Origin: a virus
Strand: one strand, 5' to 3'
IMG/VR virus record: IMGVR_UViG_3300018423_000042
Location: 1-30,700 of that record
Length of the DNA: 30,700 bases
A program made the position numbers and the translations under genes. Positions 758 to 21,680 of the stretch are shown in pieces. A model generated the notes under the pieces. That model was not told the DNA's origin and made no database searches. It saw only the letters and a program-made list of their open reading frames with translations. Position 1 is the stretch's first letter. The number at the start of each line of letters is the position of its first letter.

Positions 758-2260
758 CTAATAATAATCTGCCCTTCTGTGCCTATAAAAATCTTCTTCC
801 TGATGATCGGATGGAACACGAATAAATCCACCCTGTCGAAATCTTAAAAGAGCTTGAGTGCTCGCATCGACAAGATCATCGTGGTCCCCAGCAGGAAAAG
901 CAGCGAACTGTTCAACGACTTCTTCTGCCCATCTCGTCTTGGGGGCCCAGACAAGACCCGACGAAAAAAGATCTGAAATCGCATTGACTCTGGCAATCTT
1001 ATCTCTGCCCCGGCTTGGCGTGTACTCGGAGACCGGGATGCCCATCCTGCGTAGCTCAAAGATCAGGGGGGTGCCAGAGGCCTTTGCTTCTACAATAAAT
1101 GCATCAGGCTCGAACTCTTTATACATCTCATATGCACGGGCCTTCAAGTCTGGAAACTCTAGTCTTTCTTGTAATGCATCAAGCAGAATAATATTAGAGT
1201 TACCGTCATCATCATAGAATACGCCCCATGTGGTACAGGCGCTATAGTCTGCTGTTTCTTTTGCAAGAAATGCAGTATCCCATGATTGAATAACAAAATC
1301 ACATCTCGGGGGATTCTTGCCCTCCCATTGATTCCACCACTCGCGCTTTACGATTGCGCCTTCTTCGGAGGTAGGGTCTTGCTGGTACTGAGCACTCCAC
1401 TTCGACAGGGGAAGCTCGGCCTTTAGTGCCTCTAGCTGATCGATGGGCCAGAATCCGGGCCACAGGGGTGATCCGCTGGGCAGGATGGCAGGAAGCTCAA
1501 TGACCTCCCATTCATCTGAGCCACCACGTTCAATTGACGACTTGATGATTTGCCCTGTCAGGTCTCGCTTGGCCCAGCGTGTCATCACAATACAGATGGC
1601 ACCTCCGGGCTGTAATCTCTGACGGGGTCCAGACGTATACCATTCGTAGGTCTTGTCGTAAATAGACGGATCATTCATCGCAGCTTCCTGCTCAGAATGT
1701 GGATCGTCAATGATAAGAACGTCTGCACCTTTACCAGTTACTGCACCGCCAACACCAATAGCAAAGTACTCACCCCTCTTGTTGGTGCTCCACCTACCGG
1801 CAGCCTTTGAATCAGATGACAGCGAGACATCCTTGAAGACATCCTGATAATCTTCTGAGTTCACAAGGTTGCGGACCTTACGCCCAAAACCCACAGCAAG
1901 TTCTGCTGTGTGAGCAGTCTGGATCACTTTCTTTTCCGGGTACTTGCCCAGAAACCATGCAGGAAAAAGATGGGATGCAAACTCTGACTTTGTATGCCGT
2001 GGAGGCATATTAATAATCAGACGCTTCAGTGACCCATCAGCAATGCGGTTGAACGCATCTGACATCACCTTGTGATGCTCGCCTTCAATAAATGCTGGCC
2101 ACACTACTTTTACAAAAGACAAAAAGTCAGACTTGGCAGACTGTCTTGTCTTTGCATTTTTCAGTTGATCTAAAAGATCTAGTATTTCTACTTGTTGATC
2201 TTCCGGCAACCCAGAGATCTGCTGAAATACTTTTACTGGATCAATAGTGGACAGGGACAC
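758..2260 (-). CDS. terL: Terminase large subunit (TerL)
   Basis: This is the motor of DNA packaging: an ATPase that pumps DNA through the portal, joined to a nuclease that cuts concatemers. At 500 residues it is a normal length. The ATPase Walker A motif is PPRHTKS near residues 86-92, where most relatives have PPRHGKS, so a Thr replaces the usual Gly. Walker B is DVLIIDDP near 180-187. The RNase H-like nuclease has its acidic residues in QSWDTAF (about 325-331), FIVEAKASG (about 388-396) and HDDLVDA (about 460-466). The start is GTG with no clear ribosome site, 14 bases after the stop of the 603-residue gene, so translation may be coupled. The portal gene follows. TerS is not adjacent but lies 4.6 kb away. 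Confidence 0.95.
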   Translation of the reverse strand: MSLSTIDPVKVFQQISGLPEDQQVEILDLLDQLKNAKTRQSAKSDFLSFVKVVWPAFIEGEHHKVMSDAFNRIADGSLKRLIINMPPRHTKSEFASHLFPAWFLGKYPEKKVIQTAHTAELAVGFGRKVRNLVNSEDYQDVFKDVSLSSDSKAAGRWSTNKRGEYFAIGVGGAVTGKGADVLIIDDPHSEQEAAMNDPSIYDKTYEWYTSGPRQRLQPGGAICIVMTRWAKRDLTGQIIKSSIERGGSDEWEVIELPAILPSGSPLWPGFWPIDQLEALKAELPLSKWSAQYQQDPTSEEGAIVKREWWNQWEGKNPPRCDFVIQSWDTAFLAKETADYSACTTWGVFYDDDGNSNIILLDALQERLEFPDLKARAYEMYKEFEPDAFIVEAKASGTPLIFELRRMGIPVSEYTPSRGRDKIARVNAISDLFSSGLVWAPKTRWAEEVVEQFAAFPAGDHDDLVDASTQALLRFRQGGFIRVPSDHQEEDFYRHRRADYY

Positions 2261-6545: not shown

Positions 6546-6660
6546 TGCTCGCGATGAGTCCCCGCCACGTTCGACCACGCAGAAACACTGCGTCGGGGCC
6601 CCTGTAAGCTTCGCCACAGTCGCGGCGGCCACCCCACCCCACCCCGCCCCGGCCCGCGTC

Positions 6661-6676
6661 ACGCAAAGCACCGTCA
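6661..6676. repeat. 16-bp direct repeat ACGCAAAGCACCGTCA, copy 1
   Basis: This matches 6729-6744 exactly, 68 bp apart, in the gene-free gap 6546-6863. The two copies bracket the 17-bp palindrome at 6684-6700. Iterons for replication initiation, or operator sites, are possible. Confidence 0.7.
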
Positions 6677-6683
6677 ACAATCG

Positions 6684-6700
6684 GGCAAAAATTTTTTGCC
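6684..6700. repeat. 17-bp palindrome, perfect copy GGCAAAAATTTTTTGCC
   Basis: Two 8-base arms (GGCAAAAA / TTTTTGCC) flank a single central T. This is the only copy without a gene start close by; it lies between the two 16-bp direct repeats. It is the best sequence to represent the family of ten copies. Confidence 0.85.
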
Positions 6701-6728
6701 GTCTGTTTTGGTGGGTGTGTGAGGCGTT

Positions 6729-6744
6729 ACGCAAAGCACCGTCA
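6729..6744. repeat. 16-bp direct repeat ACGCAAAGCACCGTCA, copy 2
   Basis: This is an exact copy of 6661-6676. The remainder of the gap 6546-6863 holds a C-rich run near 6628-6655 (CCCCACCCCACCCC type) and no convincing gene. Confidence 0.7.
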
Positions 6745-6863
6745 GAAGCCGGAGACGCCCGCCTAAGACGTTTCGTGGCCCGAGCCCTTATATCCCCCCA
6801 TAAACGGGTCTGAAGTGCGTTAGAGAGCCTTCTGTGCGCTCCCTACCACATTTCTTTGGGCTA

Positions 6864-7301
6864 TCAGTGCTCTGCCCCGAACATCTCCTCCAACCTCTGC
6901 TTCAGCTCACGCTCCACATCTTCCGGCTTCCTGTGTTCGACTGTCAGCCGTGTACTCTCCTCGAATATTCCTTCTGACTTACCTAGCAATTCGAGAGCAC
7001 GTACCCGTGTGCTTGGTGGGTTGGATTCATCCATTGCTTCATCTGCCAGACGTTCAAGAATCCATTTGCCCGTGAGCTTTTTGTGGGCCTTCTTGGTTTC
7101 CTTGTTGTCTGCTTTCAGCTCCTCGACTGCACGTTGCACACGCTCGTCCTTCATCATGCGTGATGCTTCGACTGCGAGGGCGGGCTTGCTGTAGTTCTCC
7201 GCGCCGTATGCCTTCCGGTATGACTCTGAATACGTGAGTCCCTTGGCAACGAATCCGGCGAACGCCATCTGTTTCGGCGTTAGGGGTCTGTCCTTTTCCA
7301 T
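6864..7301 (-). CDS. terS: Terminase small subunit (TerS)
   Basis: TerS recognises viral DNA and loads TerL. At 145 residues it has the usual length. It opens with LTPKQMAFAGFVAKGLTYSE (about residues 7-26), the typical helix-turn-helix start of Terminase_2-type small subunits, followed by SYRKAYGAE and an A-R-M-M-K repeat-like helix (about 45-60). The middle and C-terminus are strongly charged and probably form the oligomerising coiled coil. It stands alone on the minus strand, between two rightward gene groups and 4.6 kb from terL, which is unusual. ATG 7301 has only a weak AGGTG upstream at long spacing. A copy of the 17-bp palindrome lies 37 bases before the start. Confidence 0.85.
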   Translation of the reverse strand: MEKDRPLTPKQMAFAGFVAKGLTYSESYRKAYGAENYSKPALAVEASRMMKDERVQRAVEELKADNKETKKAHKKLTGKWILERLADEAMDESNPPSTRVRALELLGKSEGIFEESTRLTVEHRKPEDVERELKQRLEEMFGAEH

Positions 7302-7338
7302 ACCACACGCTACACCTGTTTACGCCCCTTAGCAAGAT

Positions 7339-7355
7339 GGCAAAAATTTTTTGCT
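7339..7355. repeat. 17-bp palindrome copy GGCAAAAATTTTTTGCT
   Basis: It differs from the perfect copy only at the last base. It lies 37 bases upstream of TerS on the minus strand and about 49 bases left of the -35 box of the rightward promoter, so it could serve either direction. Confidence 0.8.
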
Positions 7356-7372
7356 GTTGTGTTTGTTTGCAG

Positions 7373-7399
7373 GCAAATACTAACGATAGCAAATACTAA
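7373..7399. repeat. Tandem GCAAATACTAA repeats just before the 7404 promoter
   Basis: GCAAATACTAA occurs at 7373-7383 and 7389-7399, a 16-base period. The second copy ends 4 bases before the -35 hexamer. This position suits an activator or repressor binding site. Confidence 0.6.
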
Positions 7400-7403
7400 A
7401 GAC

Positions 7404-7432
7404 TTGACAAACTTATCACATTATACTAGATT
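7404..7432 (+). promoter_or_regulatory. Sigma70-like promoter for the rightward genes from 7551
   Basis: A perfect -35 TTGACA (7404-7409) is followed after 17 bases by TAGATT (7427-7432), which matches the -10 consensus at four of six positions. Transcription would begin near 7440 and give a leader of about 110 bases before ATG 7551. The leader carries the palindrome copy at 7513. Confidence 0.65.
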
Positions 7433-7512
7433 TATATTGTGAGAAATCAGTTACGTCTCTCGCGCCGCCAGGGCGGCTATGTGTGTGGGGAGACGTGTGC
7501 CCATAAGTCACG

Positions 7513-7529
7513 GGCAAAAATTTTTTGCT
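7513..7529. repeat. 17-bp palindrome copy GGCAAAAATTTTTTGCT before the 7551 gene
   Basis: It is identical to the copy at 7339-7355. It ends 21 bases before ATG 7551, whose ribosome site is a weak AAGG. Confidence 0.8.
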
Positions 7530-7550
7530 TCTCTAGCCAAGGCCTAGACC

Positions 7551-7991
7551 ATGACAGCCGAGCAATACTTTCAGCAACGCGAGAGTATACGGCGCAGCGT
7601 TAGCGCAGTCGTGCCCGAGTCTCTGCGGCGTGTCGATCCCATCGCATACCGCAAGGCTCTAGCTGCCGACTCCGTAGCTGCTGCCGAGCGCATCGTTCGA
7701 CGGTACGCTGACCAACTCTCCATCCCTGTCGTTCAGAGCTTCCGGTCTCGCAAGCGTGACCAGATGAAGTTTCTTCGCACGACAAGCCAGTTCTCTCAGG
7801 ACAACAGCGACCCACGCACGTTCGAGCATCGTGAGCCGGTGCCCACGGGCGCAGTCGAGTCCTTCAGTCCTGACGCGCACAAGCCGAAGCGCAAGACGCG
7901 CCGCCGTCCTGCCCATACCATCGCTGTCCCGACGACCGAGTACATCGGTCTCCCATTCAATGCCCGTCCGACTTCGGAGCTTGAGGGCTGA
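7551..7991 (+). CDS. Unknown basic protein of 146 residues
   Basis: This is the first gene after the promoter at 7404. The N-terminal half is helical with many Arg residues (YFQQRESIRRSVSA). The C-terminal half is basic and low in structure (AHKPKRKTRRRPAHT, about residues 107-121). The high positive charge suggests nucleic-acid binding, but no fold is recognised. The palindrome copy ahead of it, and another 5 bases after its stop, place it in the repeat-controlled block. Confidence 0.7.
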   Translation: MTAEQYFQQRESIRRSVSAVVPESLRRVDPIAYRKALAADSVAAAERIVRRYADQLSIPVVQSFRSRKRDQMKFLRTTSQFSQDNSDPRTFEHREPVPTGAVESFSPDAHKPKRKTRRRPAHTIAVPTTEYIGLPFNARPTSELEG

Positions 7992-7996
7992 CAACA

Positions 7997-8013
7997 GGCA
8001 AAAATTATTTGCC
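7997..8013. repeat. 17-bp palindrome copy GGCAAAAATTATTTGCC before the 8026 gene
   Basis: It has one mismatch to the perfect dyad. It is followed with no gap by AAAGGAGG, the ribosome site of ATG 8026, so the element and the ribosome site form one unit. Confidence 0.85.
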
Positions 8014-8025
8014 AAAGGAGGAAAC

Positions 8026-8325
8026 ATGGTAGACGTAGCACTCGCCTTCGCCAAAGGCGAACACGTTCACGATGTCTACAACCCGTTCGTAATTCAGATC
8101 GGGTCAACGACAGAGATCAGGCTCACGTACTCGCAGGCCATGAATCTTTTTCATCGTCTGGGAAAATGCATCCATGCGTACGAGACAACGGAGGACCCGG
8201 ACCAGTACGGCACGTTCTCATGGTCTGCCTCTGCCTCGATGCGCGAAGCCCAGCTCCTTGCGTACAAGCCGAGGGCGATCATCCGGTCAGGCTATGACCA
8301 CCACCACCCAGAGGCGGGCAAATAA
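8026..8325 (+). CDS. Small unknown protein (99 residues)
   Basis: ATG 8026 has a perfect AAAGGAGG (8014-8021) and is clearly the true start, although the frame is open from 7831. The protein has a beta-rich first half (NPFVIQIGSTTEIRLTYSQ), a helix (AMNLFHRLGKCIHAYE), and a tail of His residues (DHHHPEAGK). No family is recognised. Its stop codon TAA lies inside the next copy of the 17-bp palindrome. Confidence 0.72.
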   Translation: MVDVALAFAKGEHVHDVYNPFVIQIGSTTEIRLTYSQAMNLFHRLGKCIHAYETTEDPDQYGTFSWSASASMREAQLLAYKPRAIIRSGYDHHHPEAGK

Positions 8326-8333
8326 AATTTGCC
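8317..8333. repeat. 17-bp palindrome copy GGCAAATAAAATTTGCC overlapping a stop codon
   Basis: Perfect 7-base arms GGCAAAT / ATTTGCC flank AAA. The centre diverges from other copies but stays palindromic, so the dyad itself is conserved. It contains the TAA stop (8323-8325) of the previous gene and is followed directly by AAAGGA for ATG 8347. Confidence 0.82.
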
Positions 8334-8346
8334 AAAGGATGCTGTG

Positions 8347-8646
8347 ATGAGAAAGGATTGCCAACGTACGTTAGATGCGTGGATCAAAGACGAGCCCTTC
8401 GGCAAGCGAGGGGATTCGATCTGGACAGATGGAGACGGGATCTACTCGTACAGCACATGGATTGTGTGCGAGTGCTACGGGCGTCTCCCGACGTATTCGT
8501 TCAACGCGACGAAGTACAGCCAGACGACCACAACCCACCAGAACGCGATCCGCGCATACATGGAGAGCCACGGGTTCAACTTGCGGGTGTACTACCACGT
8601 ACCAATGGGCACCTCCTACAAGGTGCCAGAGCTAGGGGGGTATTGA
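8347..8646 (+). CDS. Small unknown protein (99 residues)
   Basis: I chose ATG 8347 because AAAGGA (8334-8339) lies 7 bases upstream; the frame also contains an earlier TTG inside the palindrome. The protein is rich in Tyr, Trp, Ser and Thr (DGIYSYSTWIVCECYGRLPTYSF), suggesting a beta-rich fold, and ends VPELGGY. No family is recognised. It is the same length as the preceding product, but I see no clear sequence likeness. Confidence 0.68.
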   Translation: MRKDCQRTLDAWIKDEPFGKRGDSIWTDGDGIYSYSTWIVCECYGRLPTYSFNATKYSQTTTTHQNAIRAYMESHGFNLRVYYHVPMGTSYKVPELGGY

Positions 8647-8648
8647 AG

Positions 8649-8900
8649 ATGAGCACCAAGCTGAGAGATGATTTCGTGTCGATGTTCAGGGTACACTTTG
8701 CCAAGCATCCAGAGACCCATGTCCCAATTCCCCCTTCGGGGTGTGAGTTGCGTCGGATCAATGCTGACGGGTCGATCACATATGTGTCCGAAGAGGTCAG
8801 GACAGCTCGTGTCGGTGGCCGTGCGTGCAACGTCTGGCGTGACTACTACGACCAGTACGGATACAGGCACACGATACCCGAACCTGACGGGGACGTATGA
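8649..8900 (+). CDS. Small unknown protein (83 residues)
   Basis: ATG 8649 follows the previous stop by 2 bases, with AGGGGGG about 8 bases upstream. The product has a helical N-terminus (DDFVSMFRVHFAKHPE), then what look like beta strands (CELRRINADGSITYVSEEV) and a Tyr-rich end (WRDYYDQYGYRHTIPEPDGDV). No family is recognised. Its TGA overlaps the ATG of the next gene (ATGA), which indicates coupled translation. Confidence 0.68.
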   Translation: MSTKLRDDFVSMFRVHFAKHPETHVPIPPSGCELRRINADGSITYVSEEVRTARVGGRACNVWRDYYDQYGYRHTIPEPDGDV

Positions 8901-9118
8901 AGTGCGCGGTCGCAGGATGCGAGGAGGCTGTTCACCCCGTTCGGGTGGAGTGTGGGATCTACACTTGCATTACGCATGGCAACCATGCAAAGACGCAAGG
9001 TGTCATGCTCCCGACGAACGGTAAGTGTGGGATGACTCTGCAATTAATTCCCGGAGAAGCCAGACACTTGCAGGGTCTTATGAAGAAACAGGCACAGCGC
9101 AATCGCTGGGCTGGTTAA
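8897..9118 (+). CDS. Small Cys/His-rich protein, likely zinc-binding (73 residues)
   Basis: It starts in an ATGA overlap with the previous gene. The N-terminal half carries cysteines at residues 3, 8, 19 and 24 and a histidine at 27, so a single zinc site is plausible. The C-terminus is basic (LMKKQAQRNRWAG). No named family is recognised. A palindrome copy begins 10 bases after its stop. Confidence 0.65.
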   Translation: MKCAVAGCEEAVHPVRVECGIYTCITHGNHAKTQGVMLPTNGKCGMTLQLIPGEARHLQGLMKKQAQRNRWAG

Positions 9119-9128
9119 ACCAACAGCA

Positions 9129-9145
9129 GGCAAAAATTATTTGCC
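9129..9145. repeat. 17-bp palindrome copy GGCAAAAATTATTTGCC before the 9162 gene
   Basis: It is identical over all 17 bases to the copy at 7997-8013. AACAAGGAGG follows at once, and ATG 9162 is 16 bases after the palindrome. Confidence 0.85.
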
Positions 9146-9161
9146 AACAAGGAGGAGTGAG

Positions 9162-9425
9162 ATGGATCCGGATTACGCAGTCAAGTACAAGAACCCACTT
9201 TACGAAACGGAAAAGGATAAGCTTGAGCATTTCGCTATTAGGGTGAGTGCTTACAATGCCTCCGAGCAGTCGAGCGTTACCGTAGAGAAGGAGTTTCCAA
9301 CACGCAGAGGCATGGCTTCGGCTCAGGAAGAGGCCCGTGTGCTGGCATCGACCCTGAAGAAGTACATGGGGATGAGTGCCGAAGAGATCTTCATTTGTAA
9401 AATCTCAACAGGGGAGGAAGCATGA
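9162..9425 (+). CDS. Small unknown protein (87 residues)
   Basis: ATG 9162 has AAGGAGG about 8 bases upstream and is preferred to an upstream non-ATG start inside the palindrome. The protein shows a beta-like N-terminus (EHFAIRVSAYNAS, SSVTVEKEF) and a helix (SAQEEARVLASTLKKYMG). The next gene starts within an ATGA overlap. No family is recognised. Confidence 0.66.
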   Translation: MDPDYAVKYKNPLYETEKDKLEHFAIRVSAYNASEQSSVTVEKEFPTRRGMASAQEEARVLASTLKKYMGMSAEEIFICKISTGEEA

Positions 9426-9715
9426 GCGATGTAAACTGGAAGAGCCGGGCGAAGATCAGCTATATCAGGGACTACCCGAACGAGGTAGACATGATAGAGG
9501 TTCGCATTGAAACCGAGCTTGATCGACTAGAAAGAGATATAGAAATGCTGCAAGCATCCCACGGAAAATATCGTGAGATGATCCAGCAAGACGTGGCTCG
9601 CACAAGGATGGTGATTATGCAACATGTGGAGAGCGTCAAACGTCTTTGCTTGGAAGGGGAACAGCCCCAACTGGACCCACACCAGACAGACATGTGGCCC
9701 AGCACGATTCTCTAA
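9422..9715 (+). CDS. Small coiled-coil protein (97 residues)
   Basis: The ATG overlaps the previous stop (ATGA), and GGAGG lies a few bases upstream. The centre (about residues 20-75) is a continuous amphipathic helix rich in Glu, Arg, Met and Ile (EVRIETELDRLERDIEMLQ and onwards), probably a coiled coil. No enzyme motif is seen. It precedes the transglycosylase lipoprotein by 13 bases. Confidence 0.66.
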   Translation: MSDVNWKSRAKISYIRDYPNEVDMIEVRIETELDRLERDIEMLQASHGKYREMIQQDVARTRMVIMQHVESVKRLCLEGEQPQLDPHQTDMWPSTIL

Positions 9716-9728
9716 GAGATGCAAGCAG

Positions 9729-10301
9729 ATGAACGCTCCAGCTTTAATAAAAAATATTTCTGTCATTTTTTTTATTTCCGCCTGCCAGCAGCCCGAGGTC
9801 GAGCCACACATACCCGAACCCATCGTTGCAGCCCCAAGTGTCTTAGAACGCAACGTGGGGCCTCTGGTGGGCCATCTGGAAGAGGTTCGGTGGCCATGCC
9901 ACGGATCTGGCTGTCTGGATTCAAGCGACATCGCCCGACTCGCAGAGCACATCTACGAACGATCCGATGTGCTTGGGCTAGAGGTGGCCATGATGGTTGG
10001 GATACTCATGGTGGAGAACCCTTGGCTCGACTCGCTCGCAGTCTCTAGCGCGGGTGCTGTCGGCCTTTATCAGGTCATGCCAATGCACCGGGGCGCATGG
10101 CTAGAGTGTGATGACGCAATAGAGACCGTGTCAGGTTCGGTCTGTCACGGTTCAGTGATCATTCACGACTTTCTACAAAGGAGAGATAGCAGACACATGG
10201 CCTTGCTCGCATACAACGGATGCAGTGGTGGGCCGTGCGAAGTGTACCCAGAAAAAGTTTCTGGATATTCAAATCAATTTCTCAATGAGGAGGAACCATG
10301 A
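9729..10301 (+). CDS. Lytic transglycosylase (SLT-like) with a lipoprotein signal
   Basis: The likely start is ATG 9729. It gives a short signal peptide, MNAPALIKNISVIFFISAC, ending in a lipobox (ISA before Cys19), so the mature protein would be lipid-anchored. A Pro-rich linker (about 20-45) leads to a goose-lysozyme/SLT-like domain: the candidate catalytic Glu96 lies in GILMVENPW, then AVSSAGAVGLYQVMP (about 104-118), and ALLAYNGCSG towards the end, all typical SLT landmarks. Such enzymes cleave peptidoglycan between MurNAc and GlcNAc. Paired Cys residues around 57-62 and in the C-terminal third suggest disulphides. It lies in a run of small, probably early genes rather than with the lysis-like group at 21-23.6 kb, which is odd. 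Confidence 0.8.
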   Translation: MNAPALIKNISVIFFISACQQPEVEPHIPEPIVAAPSVLERNVGPLVGHLEEVRWPCHGSGCLDSSDIARLAEHIYERSDVLGLEVAMMVGILMVENPWLDSLAVSSAGAVGLYQVMPMHRGAWLECDDAIETVSGSVCHGSVIIHDFLQRRDSRHMALLAYNGCSGGPCEVYPEKVSGYSNQFLNEEEP

Positions 10302-10516
10302 GAGACTACCCACCTGAGTACGATCTGCTGACAGAGGCAGATGTAGAGGATGACCGCATGTGTGAGTGCGGTAGAAGTGAGAAGTACGAACAGCACGACT
10401 ACTACGGCATCTATGCCGGTAGGATGTGCGATCAATGCTTCAAGGAGAAGTACAAGCAGGGTCCATATTTTGATGCCGCATATGCAGGTGAATCGCTGGA
10501 GCCAGAGGGATGGTAA
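10298..10516 (+). CDS. Small acidic protein with two Cys pairs (72 residues)
   Basis: It starts in an ATGA overlap with the transglycosylase, preceded by GAGGAGGAACC. The protein has C-E-C (residues 22-24) and CDQC (residues 44-47), spaced as in a small zinc ribbon, amid many Asp, Glu and Tyr residues. It is probably a zinc-binding adaptor; no family is recognised. It is the last gene before the promoter at 10549. Confidence 0.66.
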   Translation: MRDYPPEYDLLTEADVEDDRMCECGRSEKYEQHDYYGIYAGRMCDQCFKEKYKQGPYFDAAYAGESLEPEGW

Positions 10517-10519
10517 AAG

Positions 10520-10559
10520 CAAATTGTATCGATGGCAAATGGTACAATTTGACATTGTA
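10520..10559. promoter_or_regulatory. Operator-like cluster of ATTGTA/TACAAT half-sites over the -35 box
   Basis: CAAATTGTA (10520-10528) is the exact reverse complement of TACAATTTG (10543-10551). In addition TACAAT (10543-10548) and ATTGTA (10554-10559) form an inverted repeat around TTGAC. Three half-sites thus overlap and flank the -35 hexamer, as expected for a repressor site. The protein that binds is unknown. Confidence 0.62.
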
Positions 10560-10577
10560 ATAGATATGTATTATTAT
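10549..10577 (+). promoter_or_regulatory. Strong sigma70-like promoter for the AAA+/VWA genes
   Basis: Perfect -35 TTGACA (10549-10554), a 17-base spacer, and -10 TATTAT (10572-10577, five of six to consensus). Transcription would start near 10584. This is the best promoter seen in the window. Confidence 0.8.
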
Positions 10578-10582
10578 TATTG

Positions 10583-10604
10583 TCTGGGAGAATAGTATCC
10601 CAGA
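10583..10604 (+). promoter_or_regulatory. Hairpin at the predicted 5' end of the AAA+/VWA transcript
   Basis: TCTGGGA (10583-10589) and TCCCAGA (10598-10604) are perfect arms around an 8-base loop. They fall at the predicted transcription start, so the RNA would begin with a stem-loop. Such 5' hairpins often protect phage mRNA; that role is inferred. Confidence 0.6.
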
Positions 10605-10611
10605 ACCACAC

Positions 10612-10628
10612 GGCAAAGATTTTTTGCC
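10612..10628. repeat. 17-bp palindrome copy GGCAAAGATTTTTTGCC before the ATPase gene
   Basis: One A-to-G change from the perfect copy. It lies in the leader between the hairpin and the AAAGGAGG ribosome site of ATG 10662. Confidence 0.83.
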
Positions 10629-10661
10629 AACAACCATCGTCTTGTTCAAAGGAGGCAGACA

Positions 10662-11804
10662 ATGGACTACGAAGTAACCGCGAGCATGATGGCACCCTTG
10701 GTCTACGACGGGTGCGACCCGCTAAACCCGACCGTATTCACGGGCCCTCCGGGGGTGGGGAAGAGCGAGATCGCCTACGCACAGTGCGAAGAGTACGCAC
10801 GACAGCAGGGGCTCGTCCCGGTGGACACGCGGGAGCGGTACCCCGGCCCCGGTGAGTTCGGCATCACCCCAGTCAACTTCAGTGGCATGGCACCGGAAGA
10901 TCTCCAGTGGCCCGTGTTTCAGGACGGCGTGTACTCGCACCGGATCTCGAACCAGTTACCCTTCGCCAGTGAGGATTGGGCAAAAAACGGTGCGACACCG
11001 GAAACTTATCGTGGTGTCGTCATCGTGGACGAGCTTGGCAAGAACCCCGACCTGATGAAGTTCCCCGCGCAGTGGGTGAACGAGAGGCAGTGGGGCAACG
11101 GCCAGTTAGTTCCTGCTGGGTTGGGATTTATTTTCACAACCAACGACTCGACGCACGGTGCCGGTGCGTTCGACATGACATCCGATCTGGTGAATCGGCT
11201 CAGGGTGTTTCGGGTGGGTAGATCCGTATCGGACTTCCTGAACTACCACAGTACGGGGGGCGGCGAGCGTCTGCATCCCCTTGTGGTCAGTTGCTGCAAG
11301 TTCTTGGGAGAAGACTTCCTGTTCACTCAGGAAAAAACTGCTCCGGGGCAGCCCTTCTCATCGCCTCGCTCTCAGGTCAAGGCGAGCAGGATTCTGGACG
11401 ATGATAACTTCGATCCGCATGGGATACACAAGTACAAGCTCCACGCCACAGTGGGTACGAAAGCGGCGACCGAACTACTCGCTGCGTACTCAGCCCATCA
11501 GAACGCCGGAGACATCTGGTCTTGGATCGACAGCCCCGACACATACAAGGATGAGATCAAGACCTTGAGTGCAGACACCACCAACAATGGCAAGCTACAA
11601 ATGGCTTCGATTGTTTCGATGGTGTCAAAGCGGGTGCAGAAGAACCCATCGGATTTCGGCAATGCAATGCAATTCTTCAACATCATGGGCAATGAGGAGA
11701 CCACGGTGACATTCGTGTCCATCTGCGTTGATCTCGTACCGGAGGTCAGGACACAGGCAGCGTTCGTTCGCCACTACGCAGACAATCAAAACTTTTATTT
11801 CTAG
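10662..11804 (+). CDS. MoxR/CobS-like AAA+ ATPase
   Basis: This 380-residue protein has Walker A GPPGVGKS (residues 28-35), Walker B VVIVDELGK (119-127), a sensor-1 region FIFTTND (157-162) and a conserved Arg in DLVNRLR (about 175-181). This matches the MoxR branch of AAA+ proteins, which includes cobaltochelatase CobS. Members remodel protein complexes, usually with a VWA partner that delivers substrates or metal ions. The VWA protein is encoded two genes downstream. ATG 10662 has AAAGGAGG six bases upstream. The gene follows a strong promoter, a hairpin and a palindrome copy. Its TAG stop touches the next palindrome copy. The ATPase call is sure; the target is unknown. Confidence 0.9.
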   Translation: MDYEVTASMMAPLVYDGCDPLNPTVFTGPPGVGKSEIAYAQCEEYARQQGLVPVDTRERYPGPGEFGITPVNFSGMAPEDLQWPVFQDGVYSHRISNQLPFASEDWAKNGATPETYRGVVIVDELGKNPDLMKFPAQWVNERQWGNGQLVPAGLGFIFTTNDSTHGAGAFDMTSDLVNRLRVFRVGRSVSDFLNYHSTGGGERLHPLVVSCCKFLGEDFLFTQEKTAPGQPFSSPRSQVKASRILDDDNFDPHGIHKYKLHATVGTKAATELLAAYSAHQNAGDIWSWIDSPDTYKDEIKTLSADTTNNGKLQMASIVSMVSKRVQKNPSDFGNAMQFFNIMGNEETTVTFVSICVDLVPEVRTQAAFVRHYADNQNFYF

Positions 11805-11819
11805 CAAAAACTTTTTGCC
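11803..11819. repeat. 17-bp palindrome copy AGCAAAAACTTTTTGCC between ATPase and partner gene
   Basis: A 15-bp perfect dyad, GCAAAAA-C-TTTTTGC. It begins inside the TAG stop codon of the ATPase gene and is followed at once by AAAGGAG for ATG 11834. Confidence 0.84.
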
Positions 11820-11833
11820 AAAGGAGCAAAGCC

Positions 11834-12790
11834 ATGTCACGGCTGCACGAAAACGCATTGATCGCATCATTCCATGTCGGTCAGTTCGGCATCTTCAAGA
11901 CCAACACTGAGATTGCAAGGCAGGGTTCGTCTGCTCTTGGTGTGGACTCGCAGTACACACGGGCTCAGATCCGGCTGTACGACGAGTCGATTAACCGAGC
12001 GATCAGGAAGGTGGAAGCTGCTGCCCGATCCTATCTCCACAAGAAAACGTCACCATGGAGCGACCCACCTCATGCCGAGCGACTGTTGCTTGTCGATGAT
12101 GTGTATGAGGTCGAGCAGAAGATGGCAGATTTCCGCATGGAGCGAGAGGACGTTGCAGATAAACTCTTGTTCAAGCGGTGGGATATCCTGCGAGAAGAGG
12201 CACGCATTGCACTAAACGATCAGTTCAGGGAAGAGTTCTTTCCAGATGTATCGGTGGTGCGTCAAAGATTTAAGTGGGAGTTGAAGATCACGCCGATCTA
12301 TGACATCCGTAACATCAGAAACAACGTGCATATCAAGGCGCACGAAGAGCTTCAGGAGAGAGCTATTCAGAACAAGGAAGCTCTTCACAGAGCAAAGACA
12401 GCCAACCTTGTAGCCGATCTCATGGACGGCGTTACGTCCCTGACTAACGGCGTCATCAGCGGCATCGACTCGTACCAGTACAACGAAAAGGACGGCAAGA
12501 AGGACAACTCGCTCCCCAAAAGGCCGAGCTGGGACAATCTCATTGCGGGTGCCGAGCGCATTGAGAAGTGGGCACCTTCATTCGACAACGAGAACATGAC
12601 CAAGACTGCAACACAGGTCAGAGATCTTGTCGATCACATTCGTGCAATCGCTGACGGGGATTTGTCCAAGGCTCGCAAGGTTCTTTCGGGCGAGGACGAC
12701 TCCATGCGTCAGGATGTAAGAAAAAGACTGAGTGAGATTAATCGTACAGCATCGCAGGTGACGGGTGCCTTTGACGAGTTCATGTCCTAA
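11834..12790 (+). CDS. Helical partner protein of the AAA+/VWA module (DUF3150-like position)
   Basis: This 318-residue protein has no enzymatic motif. It is almost entirely helical and rich in Arg, Glu, Lys and Asp. Long charged helices span about 45-160 and 175-215, a polar linker lies near 215-235, and two more helices end the protein. In other phages the gene between a MoxR/CobS ATPase and a VWA-metallopeptidase gene is often a DUF3150-type protein; length and position fit, but I could not confirm family membership from sequence alone. AAAGGAG stands 7 bases before ATG 11834. The stop overlaps the next start in TAATG, so translation is probably coupled to the VWA gene. Confidence 0.75.
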   Translation: MSRLHENALIASFHVGQFGIFKTNTEIARQGSSALGVDSQYTRAQIRLYDESINRAIRKVEAAARSYLHKKTSPWSDPPHAERLLLVDDVYEVEQKMADFRMEREDVADKLLFKRWDILREEARIALNDQFREEFFPDVSVVRQRFKWELKITPIYDIRNIRNNVHIKAHEELQERAIQNKEALHRAKTANLVADLMDGVTSLTNGVISGIDSYQYNEKDGKKDNSLPKRPSWDNLIAGAERIEKWAPSFDNENMTKTATQVRDLVDHIRAIADGDLSKARKVLSGEDDSMRQDVRKRLSEINRTASQVTGAFDEFMS

Positions 12791-14124
12791 TGGAGACAGC
12801 TATGGATACCGAAGCGAAAGAAGAAATCCAGAGAGTGAAGAAGCAGCGGTCCAAGCTGTTCATGTTTGCTCCGGGTACGTACATGATGGGTGGCGATATG
12901 CCAATCGAGGCAAGCACAGACATCGACACTTACGCTACTGACGGAGAAAAGATATTTGTCAATGTAGCTTTTTCTAAAACCATGACGGACAAAGAGGTGC
13001 GTGGTGTATTGATCCATGAGATCAAGCACAAGGCTCATGCCCACCATCTTCGCAGGCCTGATTGGTGCCCGCACTTGCTCTGGAATATTGCGTGTGACTA
13101 CAGCATTAACGGCGACATCAAGCAGTCACAGAATTATGGCAAAGATTTTTTGCTGCCCGACGACGGGTTGGTTCATAAGCAACACTCATTTAGTGGGTGG
13201 TCTTGTGAGCGTATCGCCAGACATCTGAAGGACAACGACCCTGCGTTTGCTGACGAGGATGATCAGGGCAAGCCCCAGAGCGGTGACGGTGACCCCGGTG
13301 GCGACGACGGCGAAGAGAAAGACAGCAGCCAGAATCCCAACAGCAAGTCATCGTCAGGTGGCGGGGAGCAGAGCAGTCAAGACCAGAACAAAATGCCGAA
13401 GCCGTTCGGTGAGGTTCTGGATGCCCCGGTCAAAAGCGACGGTGACGCTGAGAAAATACGGGAAGCGTACCAGAAGATCCAAGAGGATCTTGCCGAGGCA
13501 GAGATCGTTGAGAAAGCGATGGGGCGTGGGGCAGGAACAAGCTTGACCGGCATGGCACTCAAGGATCTTACCAAGCCCTGTCCAACCAGAGTTATCCGCC
13601 CATTCCTACAAAAATCTTTTGAGCGCAAGCGCAGTTGGCGGCGTCCGAACAAAAGGTTCTCACGCAACGGGAATTATTTTCCCGGCAAGTCACGGGTTAA
13701 TGGCGAACTGGTCTGCTGCATTGATTCGTCCGGGTCCGTTGGGTGGAGTGAGTTTCAGAAGTTTCAGTCAGTCATCGTCAACTCTGCACTCGACTTGGGC
13801 GTAACCAAGGTGAAGGTTGCCTTCGTGGACAGCGACATCCACATGAACCCAGACACAGGAAAGCCTTGGTTTGAGTTTCAGCTTTCCCGCTCGTCTAGCA
13901 AGTCATTCAAGATGGATATCTATGGCGGCGGCGGTACGACCTTCGATCCTATCTTTGACTACATCGAAGAAAACAATGAGCAAGTCAGAGCTTTGATCTA
14001 CATGACTGACGGTTTTGGTAACTGCAACATCTCGCCGCCCCCGTACCCTGTTCTGTGGCTGACGACTCATCAGGCTCCGTGGTTCAAGAATGGTGAGTTC
14101 GGTCAGGTCGAGGTGCTATCGTGA
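12790..14124 (+). CDS. Metallopeptidase-like plus VWA-domain protein (DUF2201 type)
   Basis: The 444-residue protein has two domains. The N-terminal part holds a zincin signature, HEIKH at residues 76-80, followed by a His-rich helix and NIACDYSING (about 99-108), as in the DUF2201 putative metallopeptidase family. A long acidic, Ser/Gly-rich linker (about 150-200) follows. The C-terminal VWA domain (about 305-440) keeps a MIDAS motif: DSSGS (312-316), GGGTTF (380-385) and YMTDG (404-408). VWA proteins of this kind pair with MoxR/CobS ATPases, as CobT does with CobS. The start at ATG 12790 is in a TAATG overlap; ATG 12802, with GGAG six bases upstream, is an attractive alternative four codons later. 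The gene also contains a copy of the 17-bp palindrome at 13138. Confidence 0.88.
   Translation: METAMDTEAKEEIQRVKKQRSKLFMFAPGTYMMGGDMPIEASTDIDTYATDGEKIFVNVAFSKTMTDKEVRGVLIHEIKHKAHAHHLRRPDWCPHLLWNIACDYSINGDIKQSQNYGKDFLLPDDGLVHKQHSFSGWSCERIARHLKDNDPAFADEDDQGKPQSGDGDPGGDDGEEKDSSQNPNSKSSSGGGEQSSQDQNKMPKPFGEVLDAPVKSDGDAEKIREAYQKIQEDLAEAEIVEKAMGRGAGTSLTGMALKDLTKPCPTRVIRPFLQKSFERKRSWRRPNKRFSRNGNYFPGKSRVNGELVCCIDSSGSVGWSEFQKFQSVIVNSALDLGVTKVKVAFVDSDIHMNPDTGKPWFEFQLSRSSSKSFKMDIYGGGGTTFDPIFDYIEENNEQVRALIYMTDGFGNCNISPPPYPVLWLTTHQAPWFKNGEFGQVEVLS
13138..13154. repeat. 17-bp palindrome copy inside the VWA gene (GGCAAAGATTTTTTGCT)
   Basis: It matches 16 of 17 bases of the copy at 10612. Here it encodes GKDFLL (about residues 117-122) between the metallopeptidase motif and the linker. 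It may be a true internal site or chance. Confidence 0.6.
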
Positions 14125-14315
14125 TGCTATCCGATGAAGAGACCAAGCTTGTAGTCACGCTCCTGCGCCGGTTCGTGAAAGAAAAGCACAACAAACTGCG
14201 AAGGCTCAGGCCGCTAGATGGTCAGCCCCCCGACGTAGTGAAGCATATAAAAAAGAAGCACACCATCAGTATTAATTTCGCTCACAAAATCATCAAAAAA
14301 CTGGAGGGAGTATGA
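14121..14315 (+). CDS. Small basic helical protein (64 residues)
   Basis: GTG 14121 has GAGG seven bases upstream; ATG 14124 directly follows and may be used instead. The frame overlaps the VWA stop. The product is strongly basic (RRFVKEKHNKLRRLR, HIKKKH), all helical, and probably binds nucleic acid or a protein. No family is recognised. Its TGA overlaps the next ATG. Confidence 0.65.
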   Translation: MMLSDEETKLVVTLLRRFVKEKHNKLRRLRPLDGQPPDVVKHIKKKHTISINFAHKIIKKLEGV

Positions 14316-14638
14316 AGCTGCCGATGTTGTTCCGAGCACTGTCTTCACTGGAAGACTTGCAACATCACGGAGATCTCATCCTTGAGAACGGCATGGCTTC
14401 CGTGAACTGGAAGCAGTTCGAGGAAGACCTACACGAAGCATCTACCGTCATCAACGAAATAGATGAGCACGTAATGTTTTTCGTCGATGAGATGAATAAT
14501 CTCAGGCACGCGCTCTCCATGCTGGTAGCACATCAGGATGTCTGGCCCCTGATTTACAGGGACACTAGAGATGCCCTATCATCAGCGCACCGAACTCTTC
14601 ACAATAGTCCATTGCTCAATGCACAGGAGGAACAATGA
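14312..14638 (+). CDS. Small helical protein (108 residues), unknown
   Basis: It starts in an ATGA overlap, with GGAGGGAG just upstream. The product is a mixed-charge helical protein with several Met and His residues and a likely coiled region (about 35-75, EEDLHEASTVINEIDEHVMF). No family is recognised. Tight coupling to the AAA+/VWA genes suggests it is on the same transcript. Confidence 0.66.
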   Translation: MKLPMLFRALSSLEDLQHHGDLILENGMASVNWKQFEEDLHEASTVINEIDEHVMFFVDEMNNLRHALSMLVAHQDVWPLIYRDTRDALSSAHRTLHNSPLLNAQEEQ

Positions 14639-14838
14639 GAACGAGAGAAGCAGCCGAAAAGAAAGCAGACGCCATTCAACGAGCGGAAGAGATGGGCCAC
14701 ACGACCATGCTCCTGAATAAATCAGGCGCAATTGAATTATGGGTCTGCAAGGTGTGCGGCGGGGCGATGGATATCTGGGACAACCCCGCTCAGGTTAACG
14801 GCGCACTACCCCATGAGGTGTGCCCCGGAGAGCAGTAA
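14635..14838 (+). CDS. Small protein with a zinc-ribbon-like Cys pair (67 residues)
   Basis: It starts in an ATGA overlap with AGGAGG upstream. The N-terminal half is a charged helix (REAAEKKADAIQRAEEMG). The second half has CKVC (about 38-41) and a later Cys before the end (VCPGEQ), too few for a full zinc ribbon unless a His helps. It is the last gene before the bidirectional terminator. Confidence 0.66.
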   Translation: MRTREAAEKKADAIQRAEEMGHTTMLLNKSGAIELWVCKVCGGAMDIWDNPAQVNGALPHEVCPGEQ

Positions 14839-14841
14839 CAA

Positions 14842-14877
14842 AAACCCCTCCCCCGGTCACGGTCGGGGGAGGGGTTT
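14842..14877. terminator. Bidirectional rho-independent terminator
   Basis: AAACCCCTCCCCC (14842-14854) is the exact reverse complement of GGGGGAGGGGTTT (14865-14877), a 13-base stem with a 10-base loop. Rightward, the T tract is short (TTTCC). Leftward it reads GGGGTTTTTGTT, a better tail, so it also suits the primase-helicase transcript arriving from the right. It lies between two convergent gene blocks. Confidence 0.93.
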
Positions 14878-14950
14878 CCGTAATCACCACAGCAACGCAA
14901 AGGAGGAAGCGTGTTGGGCTTGATTAAAAATAGTGACTCAGGGCTTTTTG

Positions 14951-16711
14951 TCAATCAAAGTCCCAATCAAAGTCATCATCTTCAATCGACCAATCGTTCC
15001 ACCGGCCAGTTGGCTTGTCGAAGTTCAGCTTGCATGAGCCGTTCCGGCCAAGCCAAGACCACCGGACCTTCCAGATGTGCGCTTCGGGCGGCTCCTCGTC
15101 TTGTGGGTGCCGCCAAGCGGTAAGGCCGATGTCAGCCTTGGCGAACCATGCCGCTGACCCTGCGATGTCGTGGCCCGTGACGACCGTCTTCCTGTCAGAT
15201 CTCCTGTCGGGCGAGACCTTTGTTGGGTGTGCAACAAAGAACACATGAGCATCGTGTTCCTTCGCCCATAGCTGAACCTTTGTCAGAATCTGAGAGATAG
15301 CATCAGTCTCTCTCATGTTCTGAGATATGGTCAAGTAATTGTATGGATCAATCACAAGAACACGGCAACCCATACGCATCACTGCCGTGCTCGCGATGTT
15401 CAGGATTGATTCGATGTCAGACGGACCGTCTCTCCTGTAGTCCATGAACAAGAAATGATCATCAATGAATTGAGCAGCGTAGTCACGTTCTGCCGGTGTC
15501 ATCTTTTCCTGATGGCCATCAAAGAACGGCTTGCCCACGATCTTCTGGGCAAGTTGTGCCATGTGTAGCTCTGGTGGTTTCTCGAAAGAACAATACACGG
15601 TTTTCCAATCGTACCGCAGCGCGAAGTTCAGGCACATCTGATCGACCAGATCAGACTTGCCGCAGCTTGGGAAGCCCGTAACGACCGTAAGCATCCCGGT
15701 TGGTATCTGGATCAGCTTGTCGAGACTCTCAATGCCAGTGCTCGCGCCCTTGGCTTGACCGTTCTCGTATAGGTCCACGAACTGTCCGTGGAAGGCATCT
15801 GCATTGTGCAGTCCTACCTCTGGCAGTGGTTGTGCCTTGAAGTAGGCAGACAGCAAATATTTTTTGCCTTCTTTTTTTATTGCTTCTCCCGCATCCTTGT
15901 GACCATTGAGATTAATAGACCATGCCTTTGATCTACCAATCCTACGCACTAACTCTTCTGCCAGTGCGCTCCCCGGCTCGTCATTGTCTGTATTCAGTAT
16001 GACGCGGTCTGCCGAATCCAGTACGGACTTTGCTGCCCACACATACTGGAACTTGTTGTCGTCTGCCGGATCAATCTTGCCGTCCTTCACCTTGGGTGGG
16101 GCACCGTTGGGGATAGACACCACAGTCACATCGTCTGGCAGATCTGCTGACATCCACGCCAGTGCATCAACCTCGCCTTCACAAATCAAGATTGAATTAC
16201 CGGGGACGTAGCTCTCAATGTTGAAAAACTCTGCGCACTTACCCTGCTGACTAAACTTCTTCCCTTCAATTGATCTCCACTTAACTGATACGACCTCACC
16301 ATCTTTCTTGTACGGAAACCCAACCGCATCAACCCTCTCTCCTGCAAAACTGTATGTGCCGAGGATTGTGCGATCTTTTACAACTTGCTCATCAAGACCA
16401 CGGTCGATCATGTACTGCAATGCCGCATTATTCTCCTGTTGTGTGTTAACAATTACAGGTTCAACAGGTATTGTTGGCATTGGTGGTAGCGGTTTGGTGC
16501 CGGATGTCCTGTGCATTATGCCACCACTGGCACCGCAGTGATGGCAGTTGTACCTGAAGCCAAGATTGTCTACGGACACGGACAGCGGCTTGTCGTTCTT
16601 GTTGCTTCTCCTGTCTGCCTGACACTCAGGGCACCTGATCTTGTGCTGCCCCGGTCTCAGGGTTGAGCAAGCATCACTTATCGCCTGACTCACCACCTTG
16701 GTCTCCTGCAT
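14951..16711 (-). CDS. T7 gp4-like bifunctional DNA primase-helicase
   Basis: This enzyme lays RNA primers and unwinds DNA at the phage fork. At 586 residues it is close to T7 gp4 (566). The zinc finger has CPEC (27-30) and CHHC (55-58). The TOPRIM primase core shows CEGEVDAL (177-184) and TDND (241-244). The RecA-like helicase has Walker A GFPSCGKS (346-353), Walker B VLVIDPYNYL (451-460) and FFVAHP (about 492-497). The end is acidic and aromatic (DDDFDWDFD), like the gp4 tail that contacts its polymerase; no DNA polymerase is in this window. ATG 16711 has AAAGGAGG upstream and overlaps the RusA gene by 38 bases. A 17-bp palindrome copy lies within the coding sequence. Confidence 0.95.
   Translation of the reverse strand: MQETKVVSQAISDACSTLRPGQHKIRCPECQADRRSNKNDKPLSVSVDNLGFRYNCHHCGASGGIMHRTSGTKPLPPMPTIPVEPVIVNTQQENNAALQYMIDRGLDEQVVKDRTILGTYSFAGERVDAVGFPYKKDGEVVSVKWRSIEGKKFSQQGKCAEFFNIESYVPGNSILICEGEVDALAWMSADLPDDVTVVSIPNGAPPKVKDGKIDPADDNKFQYVWAAKSVLDSADRVILNTDNDEPGSALAEELVRRIGRSKAWSINLNGHKDAGEAIKKEGKKYLLSAYFKAQPLPEVGLHNADAFHGQFVDLYENGQAKGASTGIESLDKLIQIPTGMLTVVTGFPSCGKSDLVDQMCLNFALRYDWKTVYCSFEKPPELHMAQLAQKIVGKPFFDGHQEKMTPAERDYAAQFIDDHFLFMDYRRDGPSDIESILNIASTAVMRMGCRVLVIDPYNYLTISQNMRETDAISQILTKVQLWAKEHDAHVFFVAHPTKVSPDRRSDRKTVVTGHDIAGSAAWFAKADIGLTAWRHPQDEEPPEAHIWKVRWSWLGRNGSCKLNFDKPTGRWNDWSIEDDDFDWDFD
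15852..15868. repeat. 17-bp palindrome copy inside the primase-helicase gene (AGCAAATATTTTTTGCC)
   Basis: On the coding strand it encodes GKKYLL between the TOPRIM and helicase domains. It is the rightmost full-length copy seen, and it is followed by a T-rich run on the plus strand. Confidence 0.58.
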
Positions 16712-20038: not shown

Positions 20039-20383
20039 ATGAACAAAGATTACGGACCTCGCGAGCAGTTTGGACTATTCAACAACGACTACAAGAAGGG
20101 ACCAAGGCATCCCGACAAGACGGGCACGTTCCGTATGTCGAGGGAGTTCCTGAAGGCCCTTGTGAGCATGGTCAAGGCGGGACATGAGCCAGAGCTTCGG
20201 CTTGCGGCGTGGGTAAACGAGAATGTCCCCGGAAAGAAAGACAACATTCGGGTGTTTCTGTCCATCAAGAACTACGACAAGGTTCTTGGCGGGGGGCAAG
20301 AGGATATGCGCTCCTACGACGAGAAGGCGGGCGCAGCAGAGGCGCAGGCATCTTTAGATGATGGAGATGATATGCCGTGGTAA
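20039..20383 (+). CDS. SSB-like small protein with an acidic, aromatic tail (114 residues)
   Basis: The product opens FGLFNNDYKKGPRHPDKTGTF (about residues 11-31), a pattern seen in widespread small phage proteins, has strands LRLAAWVNENV and NIRVFLSIKNY, and ends DDGDDMPW. The tail resembles the acidic DDDIPF-type end through which SSB proteins recruit partners. I infer a single-stranded-DNA-binding role; the fold is not proven from sequence. An insert, RMSREFLKALVSMVKAGHE, interrupts the usual pattern. It follows the annealing protein by 7 bases. Confidence 0.68.
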   Translation: MNKDYGPREQFGLFNNDYKKGPRHPDKTGTFRMSREFLKALVSMVKAGHEPELRLAAWVNENVPGKKDNIRVFLSIKNYDKVLGGGQEDMRSYDEKAGAAEAQASLDDGDDMPW

Positions 20384-20592
20384 ACGACAAGCAGTTCTTG
20401 CTGAGACTGCCGGAAGAGATGCGTTCAGCAGTGGCAGAGGCTGCACAAAACTCTGGCTGTACACAAAGCCAATGGATTAGATTGGCAATACAGGCACAAC
20501 TGGATGGCCCTGAAGAATACGATGGCCAAAGTGCAGAAATGCCTGACACGCCAGAAGCTGCAAGGAGAATTAAAAACGCTTGGTGGTTATAA
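20377..20592 (+). CDS. Ribbon-helix-helix (Arc-like) DNA-binding protein
   Basis: A GTG start at 20377 overlaps the previous gene by 7 bases. The first 45 residues read as a ribbon (KQFLLRLPEEM) followed by two helices (RSAVAEAAQNSGCTQSQWIRLAIQAQL), the Arc/MetJ fold. Such proteins are small dimeric regulators that bind palindromes or tandem half-sites. The last 25 residues are acidic and variable. It is a candidate to recognise one of the palindromic repeats in this window, which is speculative. Confidence 0.8.
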   Translation: MVNDKQFLLRLPEEMRSAVAEAAQNSGCTQSQWIRLAIQAQLDGPEEYDGQSAEMPDTPEAARRIKNAWWL

Positions 20593-21076: not shown

Positions 21077-21680
21077 CCAATACGGCGGGTAGAGACTGAG
21101 AGAGGCGCTTGGGGAGCGAGGGGTTAGCCTTCGCCTTCCAAGCGTCTCTTTCGTTTCTGAGCCCCTCTGAGACGGCCTCTGAGGCCTGAATCTGCATTGA
21201 TTGGGTTTCGATTAGAGAGTCGGCCATGGCAACTCTTTGCCACAGAAATGAACGCTCCTCTTTCAATGCATCGATTTCTGTATTCATGGCTACGACAACA
21301 GAATCGTGGGACGCACGCAATAGTTCCAGCTCTCTGGCAATAATCTCATTGCCTGCACGCCGGAGACTATCTACGAGTTCCTCTGACCTCCTATCGTAGA
21401 CGGAACTGGCACGAACCGCAGCACTCCTAGCATCCACAATGACCGTGTTGAGGCTATCGCTGCGAGATCTCAGACTATCTACTATGGCCACATAACGATC
21501 ACGTACTGCGTCCAGCCTTTCATTGGCCTGAGCCAACTGTGTTTCTGCGTCGGTGGTGCGCTTTTGCAAAGCAAGCAACTCACCTGCTGGCACATAAAAA
21601 ATATTCTTTATAGAAATTATAATGACAAAAAACACAAATCCTGCTATAAAATAATTTTTGAACACAATTTTAAATCTCAA
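21045..21680 (-). CDS. Membrane-anchored coiled-coil protein, spanin-like
   Basis: The 211-residue product has an N-terminal transmembrane helix (YFIAGFVFFVIIISI, about residues 10-24), a very long coiled coil (about 35-185) rich in Glu, Arg, Ser and Asp, and a short hydrophobic end (LPAVLATAVIVSAL). An inner-membrane spanin has an N-terminal anchor plus a periplasmic coiled coil, so this fits, although the second hydrophobic end is atypical. The frame begins at TTG 21680 with a poor ribosome site; GTG 21665 is an alternative. It closes the leftward group containing the DUF5675 and holin-like genes. Confidence 0.66.
   Translation of the reverse strand: MRFKIVFKNYFIAGFVFFVIIISIKNIFYVPAGELLALQKRTTDAETQLAQANERLDAVRDRYVAIVDSLRSRSDSLNTVIVDARSAAVRASSVYDRRSEELVDSLRRAGNEIIARELELLRASHDSVVVAMNTEIDALKEERSFLWQRVAMADSLIETQSMQIQASEAVSEGLRNERDAWKAKANPSLPKRLSQSLPAVLATAVIVSALR

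Follow-up and report, generated by a model that had tools for sequence, protein, structure and literature searches.

What reads a short palindrome that a phage has placed again and again in front of its early genes? The question is raised by a 30.7-kb IMG/VR record (IMGVR_UViG_3300018423_000042, hereafter the window), a fragment of an uncultured tailed phage in which a preliminary description had noticed ten 17-bp palindromes, proposing an operator, a phage-factor promoter element or an RNA hairpin controlling translation as their role. Our analysis indicates that the palindromes are real, clade-wide, lineage-specific phage operators, apparently undescribed so far, that are linked to terS, the gene for the small terminase protein. 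The explanation we favor, to which sequence comparisons lead us to assign a probability of roughly 0.45, is that the sites would be operators or roadblocks bound by the TerS-type protein, through which the early genes would be shut down.

We found all ten palindromes where they had been reported (Table 1). Their form in the window is GGCAAAN5TTTGCC, and the pattern GCAAAN5TTTGC occurs in the 30.7 kb at exactly these ten places and no others; as had been described, full copies are confined to 6.6-15.9 kb, with none elsewhere in the window. When up to one mismatch was allowed there were 11 matches, a number that was not reached in any of 100 dinucleotide shuffles (1.4 +/- 1.1 matches). The placement before genes held when the distances were re-measured: six copies end 12-33 bases 5' of a plus-strand ATG, and those at 7997, 8317 and 11803 abut AAAGGA(G) without a gap. 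The copy at 8317 combines an altered centre with perfect 7-base arms. Counting the copy at 7339, upstream of the minus-strand terS start, seven of the ten are start-proximal; the remaining three lie between convergent genes (6684) or within coding sequence (13138 and 15852). An eleventh palindrome, CCAGAAAAAGTTTCTGG at 10248-10264, had been overlooked. It is written in the sequence of a different phage, G001, to which the surrounding segment is 82% identical.

The layout, in which a palindrome directly precedes the ribosome site of an early gene, is common to about 15 related contigs, and its sequence is lineage-specific, such that each lineage can be said to use its own "dialect". One contig, L045, is the same phage, at 99.9% identity to the window. 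L001 is a syntenic relative (62% for the MoxR-like protein) with ten sites in matching or nearby places, mostly GGGAAAAAATTTTTCCC, and its site at 10623, the ortholog of the window's 11803 site, likewise overlaps the stop codon of the MoxR-like gene. Other dialects found before Shine-Dalgarno (SD) sequences are CCAGAAAAAGTTTCTGG (G001), CAAAAAASTTTTTTG (G019 and L075), GGAAAAATAATTTTTCC (L077), GGGGAAN3TTCCCC (G010, G011 and G015) and CATTAAN4TTAATG (G013), and terS loci revealed AACTAATNATTAGTT, AACCCTCATGAGGGTT, AACTTTSATSAAAGTT, TGGTAAATTACCA and a GTGGGA-type dialect. About a dozen different half-sites are found inside one phage group with common core genes. Sites are kept at orthologous gene starts in the relatives with both arms altered, a check that the idea of a start-associated element survived, and palindromy is kept while the arms change in step, which bears out the earlier suggestion that the symmetry is under selection.

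Among cultured phages, such sites were found solely in Planktothrix phage Pag-Yong1, which has 33 copies of CGGTTCAGNCTGAACCG (at most one mismatch). Many of these are about 21 bases before starts, about 11 near-perfect ones are inside genes, and the sites are spread over the whole genome, late genes included. In a census of eleven records, which replaced a looser one allowing up to 3 mismatches, an SD-led start lies within 45 nt of 67 of the 116 sites, versus about 27% of random positions. An exact-pattern scan of viral contigs with GGSAAAAAWTTTTTSCC returned 53 matches, most of them single chance copies; the informative ones were the window's near-identical contig, L001 and L012.

Two foreign-dialect sites, at 1789 in G001 and at 10248 in the window, lie in exchanged segments, and sites therefore move with genes. 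Phages that have otherwise diverged share a small, Cys-rich 73-aa protein at 82-90% identity (window 8897-9118, L001 7679-7897, G001 1560-1778), and the palindrome 3' of its gene travels with that gene. In L012 (G001), genes for long pentapeptide-repeat-like proteins lie at 1070-2212, directly behind start-associated palindromes.

Are these palindromes recognized as RNA or as DNA? Control of translation or mRNA stability by leader hairpins in the mRNA would suit palindromes that abut the SD sequence and whose symmetry is kept with compensatory changes, and hairpins of the GGGGAA dialect are stable (median -7.3 kcal/mol). However, the median folding energy of the sites is 0.0 kcal/mol in G019, -0.1 in L077 and -0.5 in L001, and no hairpin is stable in the CAAAAAA and GAAAAAT dialects. 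The third arm pair is broken in half of the L001 copies, always with C on the left and G on the right in the orientation read. A stable hairpin is not maintained on the sense strand, which shows no preference for G.U (5 cases) over A.C mismatches (6), and some sites are intragenic or between convergent genes. Because of the near-zero energies, the similar numbers of A.C and G.U and the intragenic and convergent-gene sites, duplex DNA is favored as the recognized form, and we consider the RNA hairpin put forward in the preliminary description to be quite improbable. The palindromes are very probably sites on double-stranded DNA for a phage-encoded protein.

A role as promoter element also seems unlikely, as conventional sigma-70-like promoters lie upstream of the sites at 7513 and 10612. 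Of the three roles first proposed, an operator is probably the best. TTGACA/TATATT-like boxes, read by eye, occur at the place of the 7404 promoter in many relatives. Sigma-70-like matches are no more numerous in this region than in shuffles, and the promoter calls rest on their quality and place. Three further candidates were rejected. For a sigma-54 promoter, GG and GC are 12 bases apart rather than the 10 of the consensus. Anti-SD pairing, in which the right arm would base-pair with the SD sequence, fits, by inspection, the L001 dialect only. Hairpin promoters for an N4-type virion RNA polymerase were dropped, as the only matches of the large protein at 23562-30698 are to LPD38 and to PHROGs without an assigned function, and not to an RNA polymerase.

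Which phage protein would bind these sites? Among 34 window genes tested, the presence or absence of the palindrome family is matched by terS alone. All records that bear sites and extend into the region contain terS, the match in Pag-Yong1 being weak. G009 (54.8 kb), G005, DSL-LC04 and HTVC027P have neither terS nor the palindrome family, yet keep TerL, primase or the large virion protein. No such sites were found near the annotated terS of HTVC023P, 023Pt_psg01 or CRP-901.

A scan for TerS yielded 80 viral and 16 genome loci. At TerS identities of 46% or more, matching perfect palindromes stand on both sides of terS in 11 of 15 loci, versus 8 of 478 control placements made within those loci; where identity is 41% or less, this strict two-sided, perfect-arm test found 0 of 68 loci. 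Because it requires perfect arms, the strict test missed an AAGTTC class. This distant TerS class comprises 18 contigs that share one dialect, AAAAGTTCN4GAACTTTT, each with a site no more than 420 bp from terS, and 411 kb of other viral contigs contain none; the scan was devised after the motif had been seen and is not an independent blind test, and the 18 loci are not fully independent. In the six of these contigs that were inspected, several further copies precede SD-led starts on the strand opposite terS. Relaxed scans detected families near terS in L099, L104, L110 and L111 too, although in L099 and L111 they are upstream of terS only. This linkage to one phage gene, together with about a dozen half-sites in a single phage group that shares core genes, fits poorly with binding sites that the phages have captured from a host regulator, an origin that we regard as highly improbable.

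The terS product matches Pfam PF03592 (E 5.5e-6) and PHROG 51 (E 6e-16), and the top Foldseek matches of its AlphaFold model (mean predicted local distance difference test score 86) are small terminases (PaP3, E217 and SF6), with weak E-values. By these measures it has the N-terminal helix-turn-helix and TerS-type helical region of the family; in the model, DSSP places helices at residues 9-19, 24-32 and 39-51, followed by a long helix. No second TerS was recognized among the window genes scanned. Variability among the palindrome-bearing phages is far greater in the first half of helix 39-51, and in the turn that precedes this helix, than in the helix-turn-helix scaffold. We compared 15 sequences of a TerS class that has many dialects with 13 of the single-dialect class. 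The two are alike in whole-protein identity (0.55 and 0.57, respectively), whereas identity is 0.28 versus 0.59 in residues 33-38 and 0.28 versus 0.47 in residues 39-45, and the block 33-45 ranks first of 122 blocks. Residues 33-45 are hence variable where dialects differ and conserved where the dialect is constant, a pattern that is suggestive of a match between helix and dialect. By a Mantel test, dialect tracks TerS as a whole (r about 0.6). Separately, G010 (7346-8545), L070, L072 and the palindrome-free G009 encode a protein of ~395 aa that has two helix-turn-helix segments resembling that of TerS and may have a zinc motif.

On balance, we think it fairly likely that a TerS-type protein is the binder. 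Several points weigh against this. A partial Mantel test of the recognition helix beyond the rest of TerS gave no extra signal (r -0.16, p 0.92); dialect therefore tracks TerS phylogeny in general, and the two-class comparison is therefore suggestive and not proof. G001 has sites while its record is without terS, nearly all contigs are fragments, and terS could merely adjoin a control region. Known small terminases form rings, and those of the pac type often show little sequence specificity in vitro (PMC7672466); our searches of open-licence papers found no report of TerS as a transcription regulator. Finally, a winged-helix protein (21673-21921 in the window) is encoded in the window, L002, G001, G019, G011, G013 and G015 and not in G009, a distribution that is similar though less complete. 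Its recognition helix varies, and stoperator systems use dedicated repressors (PMC9283540). The palindromes might accordingly be operators or roadblocks of this protein, or of an unrecognized early protein, with terS as a mere neighbour. We judge this unlikely: no site lies within 5 kb of the winged-helix gene in the window, no match to the protein was found in Pag-Yong1 despite the 33 sites there (at most one mismatch), and it has a weak match in the palindrome-free record G005. An Arc-like ribbon-helix-helix protein (20377-20589) was rejected as the main reader, as the strand with which it reads DNA, KQFLLRL, hardly varies from dialect to dialect and the protein is present in the palindrome-free G009.

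A TerS that binds these sites might do so for packaging only. The palindromes would then mark phage DNA as a set of pac-like boxes at which TerS docks and would play no part in expression, and the gaps before genes would simply offer non-coding room. Such boxes would suit the genome-wide spread in Pag-Yong1, late genes included, and the presence of sites to either side of terS at almost every locus, also in the stretch beyond terS, where one subgroup has direct-repeat arrays. They would not suit the concentration of sites in the early operon of the window, L001, G011 and others, nor the excess of sites near SD-led starts (67/116 against about 27% at random), and we find this account improbable.

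The direct-repeat arrays consist of 5-6 CGATCCCTC-like repeats between two palindromes just beyond terS (L101 1347-1700, L102 3888-4200, L103 5402-5700) and are possibly a packaging or replication site; they were rejected as a general feature, being clear solely in these three contigs and weak elsewhere. Direct repeats also bracket the palindrome beyond terS in the window (6650-6760) and in L001 (5615-5699; site 5642, 18-nt exact repeats), and it is solely at this site that L001 retains the full GGC...GCC form.

How would binding by TerS silence the early genes? A strong sigma-70 promoter would start the early operon, with sites in its leader, in short gaps before early genes, 37 bp 5' of terS and just beyond the terS end. 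As the TerS-type protein accumulates, its helix-turn-helix would bind both half-sites, whose centres are about 11 bp apart in the window, and the bound TerS would block passing RNA polymerase. Sites located 3' of promoters and in gaps between early genes suit such a roadblock, for which the repressor sites proposed to halt elongation in cluster A phages (PMC9283540) are a precedent. The early genes and terS itself would then be shut down as packaging begins, and the terS-adjacent sites may additionally mark the packaging start. We put this silencing of early genes and terS at a little short of even odds. More tentatively still, the small terminase may double as a sequence-specific global repressor, with lineage-specific palindromes coupling the start of packaging to early shut-off, and with the recognition helix and the 10-40 sites per genome changing together to give many incompatible codes.

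If the link to TerS is true, a packaging protein would also be a genome-wide regulator, providing a direct switch from early expression to packaging, and about a dozen dialects, each with its TerS sequence, would constitute a natural data set on how helix-turn-helix specificity changes alongside its sites. DNA recognition by TerS proteins has been described as not fully understood (PMC7672466), and the palindromes are a concrete, testable target for it.

The window further encodes MoxR-like and VWA-type proteins (in the early operon), a primase-helicase, an annealing protein of the Sak type and an LPD38 virion protein of very large size. Relatives of its TerL among isolates are found in Phage DSL-LC04, Pelagibacter phages HTVC027P and HTVC023P, and Planktothrix phage Pag-Yong1, and its gene arrangement is similar to that of Pag-Yong1 (69% GC). 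Nothing in the phage collection closely matches the 6-16.5 kb stretch. The segment 10662-14124, which holds the MoxR-like ATPase gene, a middle gene and the VWA/metallopeptidase (DUF2201) gene, is a block kept across the phage group. OL906435.1 (Pag-Yong1), OQ594354.1 (Synechococcus phage MinM2) and PP438419.1 (Planktothrix phage Pra-JY27) are each 65,014 bp and gave equal match scores; one phage ascribed to three cyanobacteria may truly infect a companion bacterium.

Table 1. Palindromes, promoters and genes in the 30.7-kb window.
Feature	Position	Strand	Context or basis
TerL	758-2260		
Palindrome GGCAAAAATTTTTTGCC	6684..6700		Between convergent genes, 164 bp beyond terS stop; direct repeat (GCAAAGCACCGTCA) at flanks
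terS, small-terminase (Terminase_2) protein, 145 aa	6864..7301	-	Pfam PF03592, PHROG 51, AlphaFold model, Foldseek
TerS residues 33-51: turn (33-38) and recognition helix (39-51)	7149..7205	-	DSSP of model; class comparison
Palindrome	7339..7355		37 bp 5' of terS start codon; equivalents at L001 6294 and other loci
Sigma-70-like early promoter TTGACA-17-TAGATT	7404..7432	+	
Palindrome	7513..7529		Before first early gene; 21 bases to ATG 7551
First early-operon gene, function not assigned	7551..7991	+	Open reading frame; ortholog in L001
Palindrome	7997..8013		Abuts AAAGGAGG; 12 bases to ATG 8026
Palindrome, changed centre	8317..8333		Abuts AAAGGA; 13 bases to ATG 8347
Palindrome	9129..9145		3' of exchanged gene 8897-9118; 16 bases to ATG 9162
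Foreign-dialect palindrome CCAGAAAAAGTTTCTGG	10248..10264		Within 3' end of lysozyme-like gene
Sigma-70-like promoter TTGACA-17-TATTAT (11/12 matches)	10549..10577	+	Just upstream of site 10612
Palindrome	10612..10628		Before MoxR-like gene; 33 bases to ATG 10662
MoxR-like gene	starts ATG 10662		Named from sequence, no Pfam match
Palindrome	11803..11819		Overlaps MoxR-like stop codon, abuts AAAGGAG; 14 bases to ATG 11834
Palindrome	13138..13154		Within VWA/metallopeptidase (DUF2201) gene
Palindrome	15852..15868		Within minus-strand primase-helicase gene

How do these sites compare to known systems? The promoter-early stem-loop (PeSL) cassettes of T4-type phages, which contain a promoter and a stem-loop, are repeated intergenic elements at the boundaries of exchangeable early genes. 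Here too the sites travel with exchanged genes, whereas the palindrome element has no promoter as part of it. The preliminary description had likened the position of the palindromes to that of the start-associated sequences (SAS) of cluster K mycobacteriophages. As an analogy this is apt, since SAS and extended SAS (ESAS) are repeats tied to the translation starts of non-structural genes, and the associated 17-bp inverted repeats are subcluster-specific and were thought to be protein sites (PMC3203893). Membership in that family fails, as the SAS is a non-palindromic 13-mer, GGGATAGGAGCCC, that includes the SD sequence and lies a few bp before the start, whereas the palindrome here differs in sequence and stands upstream of the SD. 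An ESAS is a pair of inverted repeats, each 17 bp long and imperfect, that are separated by a variable spacer and precede an SAS, in contrast to the single palindromes with short centres described here; the passages of PMC3203893 consulted state no link of SAS or ESAS to terS.

The linked protein itself resembles known small terminases (PF03592, PaP3, SF6, E217 and NV1) in sequence and predicted fold. The sites that those proteins are described as binding are the ones at which packaging initiates, pac or cos (PMC7672466), whereas each genome here carries 10 to about 40 sites, of which many precede genes. The stoperators of mycobacteriophage L5 and other cluster A phages are many dispersed repressor sites in short intergenic gaps, for which a stop to elongation has been proposed (PMC9283540), and the palindromes share this dispersal in short intergenic gaps of one phage. 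Stoperators are 13-bp, asymmetric and orientation-dependent and are bound by a monomeric immunity repressor; the sites here are palindromes of 13 to about 20 bp and are terS-linked, and no immunity repressor of the stoperator family was recognized among the window genes scanned. The operator set would work like stoperators while standing outside their definition.

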